Positions 10,290-23,765 of a stretch of DNA of 64,000 nt are shown in pieces. Source of the DNA: Actinomycetes bacterium (lineage in GTDB: Bacteria > Actinomycetota > Acidimicrobiia > Acidimicrobiales > Acidimicrobiaceae); the NCBI GenBank assembly GCA_021822605.1, contig JAKAQL010000003.1:1-64000 (forward strand), written 5' to 3'. Positions within the stretch are counted from its first letter, which is position 1. Every line of letters begins with the position of its first letter. A program made the position numbers and the translations under genes. Under the pieces are notes generated by a model. It saw nothing but the letters and a program-made list of their open reading frames with translations, ran no database searches and was not told the origin of the DNA.

Positions 10290-11184
10290 GGATACCGAGA
10301 GCGTAATAGGTCATCGAGCGGCCGACGTGTTCTAGGGTTAGTACACGGGAGTCCTCGGTGTTGTCCGCGCCACAGCTGGGAGGATTTACCATTTCGATAG
10401 CACATTCTCACAGCTGATTCGTCCGGTTGTCTGGGGTGCGGCTAGCTGCCATAGTTGGTGGGCTGGAGGGGCACCGCGTGCACAGCTGGAGCGTCCGATG
10501 CGAGTTGGAGTAAACCATTTTCGCCAGGGACTACAGGATTTGGGTTCGAGCCCGATAATATATCTGTAGCTCAAGAATTCTGTCCTAAGCCCTCCGGCAT
10601 GACAGAATGGCAACCGCTCCCGCAAGACGGTGCTACCGGAGGAAGAGCTGGCTGGTCGTGGTGACCGGCAAGGCGGGAAGCCTTCGCTGTATAGCTCGGT
10701 TTCCCATTGATTTTGGGAGGCGTGTGGTGCAACTCGATAGTGGCGGAGAGAAGTTCAGCAGTCCGCAGCAGAGGGATGAGTTTTCGGTCGGTGCTATGTC
10801 GTACACCGAGAGAAGCATCAAGAGTGCCAATACCTATGATCTTTGCGTGCGAGCGAAGTTGGTTAGACAAACGCACAAGCCCTGCACGCGACACCGCAGC
10901 GGGTGCGAGATGCGCAGTGGCTCGCGTGAACCTGGGGATATGTACGCTGGGTTCATAGGCTAGCGTCGAGTTCGCTCAATGACAAGCCTCCGTATGCGCA
11001 CGGAGTTTGTCTTTCCTAACTCGATACTCTGTCACCAACAGTGGCTTGGCCCAGTGGTTGGACCTGGTCGGACTGGCCCGCTTGGTTTGACGATCCATAT
11101 CAACATCGCAACAAGATTTTTGTATTTACGTCTTTGAACCTAAGATCGCAGAGTCGATCTATCTGAAACAAGGAGATCACCAAA
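10290..11184. other. Long intergenic region between mutY and metY
   Basis: 895 bp between divergent genes. The left two thirds contain only weak open frames on both strands, none family-like. The right end (about 10981-11184) is the metY leader with two strong hairpins, annotated separately. I found no complete tRNA: a T-arm-like GGGTTCGAGCCC near 10548 has a six-base loop and no matching acceptor stem. Confidence 0.5.
10981..11078 (+). promoter_or_regulatory. Structured leader RNA candidate upstream of metY
   Basis: Two hairpins lie in tandem. The first runs 10981-11011: GACAA and CTCCGT pair with ACGGAG and TTGTC around a six-base loop, giving 11 pairs with small bulges. The second runs 11048-11078, with GGCCCAGT pairing to ACTGGCC with one bulged base. 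The metY start is about 100 nt further on. Sulfur-amino-acid genes are often controlled by leader RNA (SAM or SAH riboswitches), but I could not match this to a known SAM class. It could also be two operators or chance structure. Confidence 0.35.
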
Positions 11185-20629: not shown

Positions 20630-22570
20630 CTAAGGGCTGGCAAGCCTCCAGCGCGATGGCATGTAGTTCGCATAAGGGTTGAGCGGGCTCCACCCGGTGA
20701 GGCTCTTGTTCACAACGGCGACTTCGTAGTCCCCGACACTCCACCAAAGCCCTGCTACCTGTTGGCTCTGATAGTTCTCTACTGTGTAGAGCCGAGAGAG
20801 TCCAGGAAGGTGGTAGGCATCACTGAGGAGGCGCTGCTCAATCGGGTTGTAATATCCGCCTCCCCAATAGTTACCCTTTGCAAACTCGACTCCAGCCGTT
20901 GGCACGAGCACGTACTGTCCGAAATCCTCTTGAGCGCCATAGAGGGCGATTCCCCAGTTACAGGGGCCAGGAGGGCAGACACCCGCTGTTGAGTACATCG
21001 TGTCTTCAGGCTGTGGGTTGAGCTCGACGGTAATGCCTGCGGTCTGGGCAGCCGTCGCGAAGGCCTGCGCTTGCGCCGTTAGGCTAGCGCTCGGTGTTGC
21101 ATACATCATGGAGATCACCAGTGGCGCGCCCCTCTTGATGTCAGCACCGCACTGGTCAGCGCCAGTTCCAGGGTTGATGCAAGTTGATGGGCCGGAGGTA
21201 GACAGCCTCCATCCATGATGCTCTAATAGTTGCCGCGCTGCCGTGACCGAGTATGGATAGGGATCGTGATGCAACTGCGGACTGACATAGTCCGACCCTG
21301 GATAGATCGGTGCCGACCCATAGTCGAGCATGCCGTTCCCGTGTAGTGTCGCCTTCAAATAGAGGGGTTCGTCGACGAGGTGTTGGAGTGCCTGCCGGAA
21401 GTAGAGTTGGGCAACAAGATGGCGATAGGGGCCGGTGTAACCTAGCTCTGCGATGTTGTCGTAAAAGACCTTCCATGGGTGTACGACATAGCCATGGGTC
21501 TGGAAGTAGTGGGTCAATTCGAGGTCGGATGTCGGCAGATAACCGAAGTCAACGACCCCTGCGCGGAGCGCGTCGAGTTCGGCCGTGTCCGAGGTGAATG
21601 AGTAGATCTGGTAACCAGCGAGCCTGGGCTTACCGGCGCCTGTATAGCGTGGGTTTGCCCGAAACACAGCGTGGTAGTCTGTGGGGTTGTAGCTCGTGAT
21701 CTCCCATGGACCGTCGATTGTCTTCCAGAGCGGATTAGTGGCATAGGTCCTGAGCTGGGCCGACTCCTTGTACAGAAAGTCGATGACCTTCGTTGCTCCA
21801 ACGGGCGTTGAGGCGGCATTGGTAATGCGACAGGTGGAACAGGTCTTGTCCCAGGCCTGCACTGGAAGTGGATAGATCCAGGTCAGCTGGTTGCCGGTAA
21901 ACCAAATCGGGTTATAAGAATGGTTGAGGTGGAGGGTGAATTGGTACGGACCCTGATAGGTGATGCTCTCAATATCCGAGGGCATACGACCCGGCAGATA
22001 GGGGGCGTAGTCGCCGTTCTTGGCTCCTGCGGCCTCGAGCTCGAAGAAAAATTGTATGTCCTTGGTCGTTACCGGTTGACCGTCAGACCAGGTGTAGTTA
22101 TGGCGAAGATCGATAGTCACCGACGTGTCACCATGGGAGTAGTGAGGAACGGTGCCAATCGAGAGCGGATAGTTGACCCCGGTCGTGCCAGCTCCTCCCG
22201 CGTAGTACAGTGGGCGAAACAGACCATTGGCGACGTTGGAGTCATAGTTCTCGTAATTGGCTTCGTTCTCCAGTGGAAGGATCCAACTGAATTGATCCCC
22301 GGCACCAAGCGCGTAGGAGGCCACACCGCCGGAGCTACGAGTGGCAGATGCTTGAGACTGTTGCGAACCGGTGCAACTTGCGAGGAGCAGTGCTGCCATC
22401 CCGATGCTGACAGATCCAAGGATTACCCTTTGCTTGGTGTGTCGAGCAGCGTGTTTGGCGGGTCGTGAGGCCTTGGTGAGCCAACGAGACGCACCCCTAT
22501 GATGCCCTAAGCCACAAAAAAAGTGTCGCTGAATGGGCGACACCGACAAAAAAACGGTCTGCTTGGTCAT
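20630..22570 (-). CDS. ABC transporter substrate-binding lipoprotein, family 5, behind a TPP riboswitch
   Basis: 646 residues. The lipoprotein signal is VSIGMAALLLASC with the lipobox LASC; the mature part is the SBP_bac_5 (oligopeptide/nickel) fold, with family features such as DIRHNYTWSDGQPVTTKDI and DDLLNRPEW-like late segments. The TPP aptamer directly upstream says the gene is switched by thiamine status, so a thiamine precursor or related ligand is likely. No permease or ATPase gene is adjacent. The ATG at 22570 has GGAGGGA upstream (inside the aptamer); the signal peptide would then be about 60 residues, unusually long. No other in-frame ATG, GTG or TTG exists before the signal core. 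Confidence 0.9.
   Translation of the reverse strand: MTKQTVFLSVSPIQRHFFCGLGHHRGASRWLTKASRPAKHAARHTKQRVILGSVSIGMAALLLASCTGSQQSQASATRSSGGVASYALGAGDQFSWILPLENEANYENYDSNVANGLFRPLYYAGGAGTTGVNYPLSIGTVPHYSHGDTSVTIDLRHNYTWSDGQPVTTKDIQFFFELEAAGAKNGDYAPYLPGRMPSDIESITYQGPYQFTLHLNHSYNPIWFTGNQLTWIYPLPVQAWDKTCSTCRITNAASTPVGATKVIDFLYKESAQLRTYATNPLWKTIDGPWEITSYNPTDYHAVFRANPRYTGAGKPRLAGYQIYSFTSDTAELDALRAGVVDFGYLPTSDLELTHYFQTHGYVVHPWKVFYDNIAELGYTGPYRHLVAQLYFRQALQHLVDEPLYLKATLHGNGMLDYGSAPIYPGSDYVSPQLHHDPYPYSVTAARQLLEHHGWRLSTSGPSTCINPGTGADQCGADIKRGAPLVISMMYATPSASLTAQAQAFATAAQTAGITVELNPQPEDTMYSTAGVCPPGPCNWGIALYGAQEDFGQYVLVPTAGVEFAKGNYWGGGYYNPIEQRLLSDAYHLPGLSRLYTVENYQSQQVAGLWWSVGDYEVAVVNKSLTGWSPLNPYANYMPSRWRLASP
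22516..22543 (-). terminator. Intrinsic terminator inside the 5' coding region, below the TPP aptamer
   Basis: On the minus strand GTGTCGC, a seven-base loop and GCGACAC are followed by seven T residues. It starts about 28 nt after the ATG at 22570, within the same open frame. As it sits directly below the aptamer it is probably the riboswitch's transcription-termination platform. A short alternative pairing (ACCG with CGGT) overlaps its 5' arm and might act as antiterminator. Confidence 0.75.
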
Positions 22571-22573
22571 GGC

Positions 22574-22652
22574 TGACGTCCCTCCGCTAGTACTAACTAG
22601 ATCAGGTTCAACAGGTCTTTCTCAGCTCGAACTGCTCGAGCACCCTGCGTCA
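22574..22652 (-). ncRNA. TPP riboswitch (THI element)
   Basis: On the minus strand the conserved parts occur in order: P1 arm TGACG (22648-22652), GGGTGC, the pyrimidine-sensing CTGAGA (22620-22625), GAACCTGATCT (22599-22609), the CTAG...CTAG hairpin, AGCGGAGGGA, and the P1 closing arm CGTCA (22574-22578). This matches the thiamine-pyrophosphate aptamer. The GGAGGG that serves the start codon at 22570 lies inside the aptamer, so ligand binding would hide it. Confidence 0.92.
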
Positions 22653-22784
22653 CTAGCTCCACTCTAGTCGATACGACTTTGTTGGTGCACCGTTCGATAA
22701 AACGGGATCGTCAGTGTGCAACAACAGCTGAACGCGAGCGATGGTGCTGAGCTTTGACTTGACAGAGCGCCGCTTACCAGCAGA

Positions 22785-23765
22785 TCACGAGGGGATGGAC
22801 CGTCCGTGAGCTCTGAGGTACTGTTCGCGTACGGCCCGCGGGATGCGACCCTTGGCAGGTACTGCGATGTTGTGTTCGCTTGCCCACTCGCGGATGCTGG
22901 TTGGGCTCGCACTTGGGCTTTGCTGAGCATCTCCCATCAAGGTCGGTACGCTAAGCGCTTGATGATAGGCGGCCGCTAGGTATCGGTACGTCCACTCCTC
23001 GGCCAGCTTTCTGTTTTCACAGAACACGACGGGTACTTCGGGCCACCGTAGGGCGTAGTCGGCGACCGCGTCCAAGATTAGCGCTGGTCGCATGTAAGGG
23101 GACTGGAGAATCGCAGAGTAGCGAGCTTCGACGACGATCGCGGCATGAGCGAGGGCGGCGAGTTGACCGATCGCGTAGCGGAGTCGATTGTCGGAGAGGC
23201 TTGCGATAAGGTCTTCGAGAGTCTTGCGCTCGACTGCCGCATAGAGGTCGGTGCCAAGGTAGACGCCGTAATCGCCACAGGGCAACGCACCTCGTTGGGT
23301 GTTCACCGATCGATTGCGAAATTGGTAGGGATAGCGTTCCCTGGTGTCAATGGTGATAGGTATGTCCACCACGCCATGAGCTCTTGCTCGTGGCACCGTA
23401 CCTTTTGGTTTGGCCTGGCGCTGTGTCCTTGTGGATTGCCAGAAGATCATGTCGCGTCCCCGGGCGTGTGTGAAGACCAGTTGGGATCGATTCTCCCTAG
23501 CTCGGTCGGCGACGATGTCGATAGCCGCTCCTCGGCGCGCGCAGGAGAGGAGAGTGATCTCCTCGACCACCTCAGGCTCCGTCGGCCAGTCGCTGATCGG
23601 CACTGGATGACAGTACAGCGCTTTCGTTCGGGGCCAAGTGCCGGAGGTCTTCACGACCATTCCGCCGTCGATCGGGATCATGACCAGGTAACCAAGCCCT
23701 GAGGCAGCATCTGGGTTGCGAGCGATCGTGAGGTAGGGAAGATCGGTGCTCATCGCGCTAACCAT
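22785..23765 (-). CDS. ERCC4-domain nuclease with Lsr2-like C-terminal DNA-binding tail
   Basis: 326 residues. Residues about 135-225 carry the XPF/ERCC4 nuclease pattern: ITIDTRERYPY, GDYG and VERKTLEDL, i.e. the ERKxxxD metal site. The first 130 residues have no family I know. The last 40 residues (SIREWASEHNIAVPAKGRIP) match the Lsr2 C-terminal domain, which binds AT-rich, often foreign, DNA through an RGR-like loop; here the loop reads KGR. The start is ATG at 23765 or the ATG at 23753. The gene stands upstream of the TPP riboswitch on the same strand. Its role may be DNA repair or defence; the sequence does not decide. Confidence 0.8.
   Translation of the reverse strand: MVSAMSTDLPYLTIARNPDAASGLGYLVMIPIDGGMVVKTSGTWPRTKALYCHPVPISDWPTEPEVVEEITLLSCARRGAAIDIVADRARENRSQLVFTHARGRDMIFWQSTRTQRQAKPKGTVPRARAHGVVDIPITIDTRERYPYQFRNRSVNTQRGALPCGDYGVYLGTDLYAAVERKTLEDLIASLSDNRLRYAIGQLAALAHAAIVVEARYSAILQSPYMRPALILDAVADYALRWPEVPVVFCENRKLAEEWTYRYLAAAYHQALSVPTLMGDAQQSPSASPTSIREWASEHNIAVPAKGRIPRAVREQYLRAHGRSIPS

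Follow-up and report, generated by a model that had tools for sequence, protein, structure and literature searches.

A Three-Part Gene That Stands Alone

The DNA analyzed here, which we call the window, is a stretch of 64,000 nucleotides from an Actinomycetes bacterium of the family Acidimicrobiaceae. On its reverse strand lies an intact open reading frame, placed exactly by an earlier sequence-only reading, that encodes a protein of three parts (Table 1). The full-length AlphaFold model (mean pLDDT, 87.7; pTM, 0.51) consists of well-folded parts joined by disordered linkers at residues 118-128 and 275-282, and a Pfam search with the whole protein returns ERCC4 and Lsr2_DNA-bd only, with no HhH2. 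Pairs of congeners differ with a dN of 0.10-0.11 and a dS of 0.88-0.92 (dN/dS of ~0.11), showing that the three-part gene is under purifying selection. Given this ratio and the three-part copies found across the phylum, the architecture is not a product of chance. Among close relatives, identity is 81-82% in the first two domains and 56% in the tail; by this measure the PE-like (LigD 3'-phosphoesterase-like) and ERCC4 domains are equally constrained and the Lsr2-type tail evolves faster.

Table 1. Features of the nuclease gene, in window coordinates
Feature	Position	Strand	Basis
Three-part nuclease ORF, 326 aa: PE-like + ERCC4 + Lsr2-type DNA-binding tail	22785..23765	(-)	ORF, Pfam, homologs
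N-terminal domain, residues 9-118, LigD 3'-phosphoesterase-like beta-barrel fold	23412..23741	(-)	Fold search
ERCC4 (XPF/Mus81/Hef-type) nuclease domain, residues 135-272	22950..23363	(-)	Pfam and VIA-align
Catalytic stretch GDY....VERKTLED, residues 164-185	23211..23276	(-)	Conserved alignment columns
Linker, residues 273-285, disordered, little conserved	22911..22949	(-)	pLDDT <50 at 275-282; 25% identity among close relatives
Lsr2-type DNA-binding tail, residues 286-326	22788..22910	(-)	PF23359, 36.1 bits; Lsr2 C-terminal structures 2kng/6qkp
AT-hook-like motif K305-G306-R307 (RGR in Lsr2)	22845..22853	(-)	Sequence and family survey

The gene stands alone in the window: a separate TPP riboswitch (22562-22657, reverse strand, 72.1 bits) heads the following gene downstream, which encodes a substrate-binding lipoprotein (20630-22570) and possibly serves the uptake of thiamine or a thiamine precursor. 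A SAM-IV riboswitch (53.3 bits) lies elsewhere in the window, at 10569-10680 on the forward strand.

The ERCC4 Nuclease Domain

That the middle of the protein is an XPF-like ERKxxxD nuclease, as the sequence-only reading had proposed, was borne out by profile and by structure. Pfam-A places ERCC4 (PF02732) at residues 139-261 with 65 bits against a cut-off of 24, a profile built from 31 homologs matches the Hef nuclease (1j22; E value, 2.6e-9) at the expected place, and the ERCC4 part of the AlphaFold model aligns with XPF (2bgw) at a Z score of 16.3 over 127 residues (VIA-align), the archaeal XPF/Hef structures 2bgw, 2bhn, and 1j24 all scoring ~16. The ERKxxxD motif corresponds to V178-E179-R180-K181..D185 and is preceded by G164-D165-Y166 and by D140/E143; all of these residues are invariant among the 31 homologs except D185, which is nearly so, and ERCC4 itself is matched in 31/31. 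With the domain cut-off exceeded and the GD..ERKxxxD motif present, the protein is, by its sequence, a member of the ERCC4-domain nucleases (PF02732).

XPF-type nucleases have been described in archaea and eukaryotes, and XPF, Hef, and Mus81 cut near the junction of double- and single-stranded DNA. In our control genome set ERCC4 was found in archaea only, and the window's genome carries a single ERCC4 gene. The actinomycetotal protein has the nuclease fold and the GDY..ERKxxxD active site in common with archaeal Hef/XPF and eukaryotic XPF/Mus81, but it is bacterial, it lacks the helicase domain, and it carries a PE-like domain in front and an Lsr2 tail behind. The tandem HhH domain that follows the nuclease in XPF and Mus81 is absent by Pfam, and the model shows in its place a linker and a two-helix Lsr2-type tail; for want of HhH2, the protein is not an XPF/Mus81 orthologue. 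NucS/EndoMS, a two-domain repair nuclease of Actinomycetota, also has a beta-rich N-terminal domain, but its nuclease is RecB-like rather than of the ERCC4 type, and neither NucS nor RecB-like nor other nuclease folds occur among the fold matches of our protein.

The N-Terminal Domain: a Predicted LigD Phosphoesterase-Like Fold

The sequence-only reading had set apart an N-terminal domain of 130 residues and called it unknown. The first ~118 residues are indeed a separate domain and match no Pfam family, PF13298 (the LigD 3'-phosphoesterase, or PE) remaining unmatched up to an E value of 10; a fold search, however, gives them a likely identity. Modeled alone (pLDDT, 87.4), the domain has as its top four structural matches LigD 3'-phosphoesterases only: 3p43 (Z of 9.9, 103 residues, 3.1 A), 3p4h (9.8), 3n9d from Pseudomonas aeruginosa LigD (8.2), and 5dmp (7.6). 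These matches span 93-109 residues, the next structure scores only 4.1, and Foldseek concurs (probability of 1.00; TM score, 0.64). As modeled, then, the domain shows the LigD-PE fold, which has been described as unique to the PE clade (PMC4797286).

What the domain has in common with the enzyme is the modeled fold and probably not the chemistry. In the Methanocella PE (5dmp), H40, H46, and D48 bind the metal and R50, H82, and Y86 bind the phosphate (PMC4797286); neither the metal ligands (His, His, Asp) nor the full set of six catalytic residues is conserved in our domain, which has no invariant histidine anywhere in the family alignment and which, in the best but weak register, offers G/P25 and L27 at the positions of H46 and D48. 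Two attempts at profile-profile comparison with nine LigD PE domains were not significant (hhalign probability of <1%), although their local matches lay in the register that the structures predict. The name "PE-like" reflects both the missing metal ligands and a sequence relationship to PE that falls short of significance. Lacking catalytic residues and a profile match, the protein is, on present alignments, not a PE enzyme; its N-terminal domain is probably noncatalytic and probably a binder of DNA ends, and on the modeled fold common descent with PE is plausible. The two also keep different company, since PE is joined to ligase and polymerase in LigD and to a nuclease here. Across 396 genomes, the complete N-terminal domain was always joined to ERCC4, and no stand-alone copy was found: a weak match in G148 is antisense to an FAD oxidoreductase, and those in G376 and G328 are short fragments.

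The Lsr2-Type Tail, Probably an Exchangeable Module

The C-terminal domain is of the Lsr2 type, a call of the sequence-only reading that the profile searches uphold. PF23359 (Lsr2_DNA-bd) matches residues 286-318 with 36.1 bits against a cut-off of 26.9 (Pfam-A), the profile of 31 homologs finds the solved Lsr2 C-terminal domains 2kng, 6qkp, and 6qkq at the expected place (E value of ~2e-5), and 26/31 homologs match the domain at least weakly (E value up to 0.1). This DNA-binding domain (PF23359; 2kng, 6qkp) is what the nuclease has in common with Lsr2, the xenogeneic silencer of Actinomycetota. Unlike Lsr2, it lacks the N-terminal oligomerization domain PF11774, its tail is variable and often missing, and the RGR motif is degenerate in some members; with PF11774 absent it is, as far as its domains tell, not an Lsr2 protein.

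How much does the tail matter? Among 79 classified members, the Lsr2-type tail is present in 44 and nothing follows ERCC4 in 28; a deep, diverged clade of 5 has a winged-helix-looking tail instead, and the remaining 2 carry an unassigned C-terminal domain of ~190 amino acids. These states cluster on the family tree. The AT-hook-like motif is RGR in most members, KGR in the window's protein, and RGP or KGP in the close relatives L002 and L004, where the key arginine of RGR is lost. The window's genome encodes no Lsr2 protein, PF11774 being absent from the whole genome as well as from the nuclease, which rejects dependence on a host Lsr2; the Lsr2 cut-off was passed in 6/58 family-bearing genomes tested, all 6 belonging to one family (code f57). 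Because the tail is dispensable, the host lacks Lsr2, the RGR motif is degenerate, and the tail evolves faster than the rest, we favor a reading of the tail as an exchangeable tether to DNA and not as the functional core. The same observations leave unsupported the earlier proposal that an Lsr2 tail aims the nuclease at xenogeneic DNA.

Members L097 to L101, which form the deep clade, come from genomes of 1.5-2 Mb and have the same PE-like and ERCC4 parts; their winged-helix-looking C-terminal domain has no Pfam match in the two members scanned (L098 and L100). The extra ~190-amino-acid domain of L152:8720-10096 and L154:4529-5881 (GEPVGHWGGR.IWQL...), also without a Pfam match, is possibly another nuclease. 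In L085 (9490-11676, reverse strand), an ORF of 728 amino acids places a stretch of ~450 residues without a Pfam match ahead of the PE-like and ERCC4 domains.

Distribution and Neighborhood

A survey for the same fusion found the full protein in 38 of 396 evenly sampled Actinomycetota genomes (~10%). The family is present in all 7 genomes of the window's genus, one member of which is named Ferrimicrobium, and in 2/18 other genomes of its family; the distribution is Actinomycetota-wide but patchy. This prevalence rejects a ubiquitous housekeeping repair enzyme, the case that the sequence-only reading had named as speaking against its proposal. Several members lie on complete chromosomes (e.g., L015 and L017), and the gene is also carried by 23 plasmids of Mycobacterium, Rhodococcus, Pseudonocardia, and Streptomyces, with recombinase and ParA genes adjacent on some. 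Neither a phage collection nor IMG/VR contains a match to the family, and a phage origin is rejected on that ground. Several of the mycobacterial carrier plasmids range from 21 to 615 kb and annotate the product only as "ERCC4 domain-containing protein"; homologs elsewhere are misnamed "histone-like nucleoid-structuring protein Lsr2." In one congener (L104, in G001) the gene is split by an in-frame TAG, and another genome of the phylum (L160, in G376) keeps only a remnant, from which it follows that the gene is lost now and then.

Within the window's genus the gene occupies one conserved locus, and across genera no neighbor recurs; apparent conserved "neighbors" proved to be antisense ORFs of the gene itself, leaving no conserved operon partner. 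Of about 70 loci examined, 2 have nonhomologous end-joining (NHEJ) genes in the neighborhood of the family member. In G033, which belongs to the same order, 115 bp separate the gene (start at L109:10572) from a divergently oriented NHEJ ligase (TIGR02779); the ligase opens a complete operon that continues with Ku (TIGR02772) and the LigD polymerase (TIGR02778), all scoring above their NCBIfam cut-offs; in G286, Ku and LigD lie ~4 kb from the gene. The two linkages are suggestive because, by our own estimate for a genome of ~4 Mb, only ~0.2 linkages within 10 kb would be expected by chance among 33 Ku-bearing members. Ku occurs in 33/38 family-positive and 174/358 family-negative genomes (Fisher P value of 4e-6, on raw counts that ignore phylogeny and genome size). 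In the window's own genus, Ku and LigD-PE are absent from 7/7 genomes, and Ku is absent also from the two other members in the window's family; in that genus, then, the protein cannot depend on canonical NHEJ, and dependence on Ku is rejected there.

What Might the Nuclease Do?

Taken together, these observations are consistent with a repair nuclease that stands alone and selects its DNA by structure, processing ends, flaps, or branches, a proposal to which we give an even chance of being right. In this model, the PE-like domain, its PE catalysis lost, would act as the binder of DNA ends or 3'-terminated junctions; the ERCC4 domain, by analogy with XPF, Hef, and Mus81, would cut near the junction of double and single strands; and the exchangeable C-terminal module, here of the Lsr2 type, would only hold the protein on duplex DNA, as a substitute for the HhH2 domain found behind ERCC4 in XPF and Mus81. 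In many Actinomycetota, we posit that Ku/LigD end joining would use the enzyme to trim 3' flaps or unmatched ends, and in the Ku-less genus of the window it may have an equivalent role in annealing-type or branch repair. A flap trimmer for end joining is attractive in Ku-bearing hosts for two reasons: the substrates of bacterial and archaeal PE enzymes are short 3' ribonucleotide ends and flaps, and the search for further end-processing nucleases in bacterial NHEJ continues (PMC4797286, PMC3656841). The kept active site, the top fold matches to PE only, the NHEJ loci of G033 and G286, and the co-occurrence with Ku are suggestive of repair. On the other side, plasmid carriage and patchiness are unusual for a core repair enzyme, the window's genus is Ku-less, NHEJ neighbors are few, and the sequence homology to PE is not significant. 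We speculate further, and tentatively, that the family could be an end-joining equivalent of XPF-ERCC1 in bacteria, in which a retired LigD-PE fold and an archaeal-type ERCC4 domain trim 3' flaps at microhomology-annealed breaks, held to DNA by interchangeable tails (Lsr2 type, winged helix, and others); this more specific idea is possible, if somewhat unlikely.

Could the protein be a general branched-DNA nuclease like Hef or XPF, acting in fork or crosslink repair without any special tie to the joining of double-strand breaks, its PE-like fold a DNA-binding scaffold only? The closest ERCC4 matches are Hef and XPF, every sampled genome of a genus without Ku has the gene, and most members have no NHEJ neighbor; yet the PE fold has otherwise been described from NHEJ-type end processing (PMC4797286), the G033 gene directly adjoins an NHEJ operon, and Ku co-occurs with the family, so that we regard this account as rather unlikely. 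The sequence-only reading had left the choice between defense and repair, and of the two it is repair that fits better, by way of the LigD-PE fold of the N-terminal domain and the two members at NHEJ loci. A defense or xenogeneic restriction nuclease, recruited by its Lsr2 tail to AT-rich incoming DNA that ERCC4 then cuts, would account for a tail with a KGR/RGR motif and for a patchy, plasmid-borne distribution, and scattered defense-model matches do occur in the surroundings of some members, a type IV restriction enzyme (one case) and mad3/mad6 among them. But the protein matches no PADLOC family, and no recurrent defense partner emerged among 145 neighbor proteins of ~25 loci (a count that has no random-locus background and so allows for a mild enrichment), and a defense island is rejected on these grounds.

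A defense role also sits poorly with a tail that is absent or replaced in 35/79 members, with the loss of the key arginine in close relatives, with a PE-like end-processing fold, and with a host that has no Lsr2 and whose window, at 57.7% G+C, stands out less sharply from AT-rich DNA than high-GC genomes would; we consider it quite improbable. Finally, the 23 carrier plasmids, and the recombinase and ParA genes beside the gene on some of them, would suit a maintenance nuclease that resolves replication or recombination intermediates of large actinobacterial plasmids and has also settled on chromosomes. Against this stand the absence of the family from the phage and viral collections, the members on complete chromosomes, and the single conserved locus in the window's genus, and we think this role very improbable.

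Outlook

In the open literature searched, no paper names ERCC4 together with Lsr2 or with LigD, and this three-part nuclease family of Actinomycetota appears to be undescribed there. The family carries a warning, which is that an Lsr2 tail alone is no proof of foreign-DNA targeting. It also leads to a specific question about bacterial flap processing that can be put to the test: which nuclease trims the flaps that bacterial LigD and PE cannot handle? The LigD-PE fold and the NHEJ loci of this family make that gap testable.
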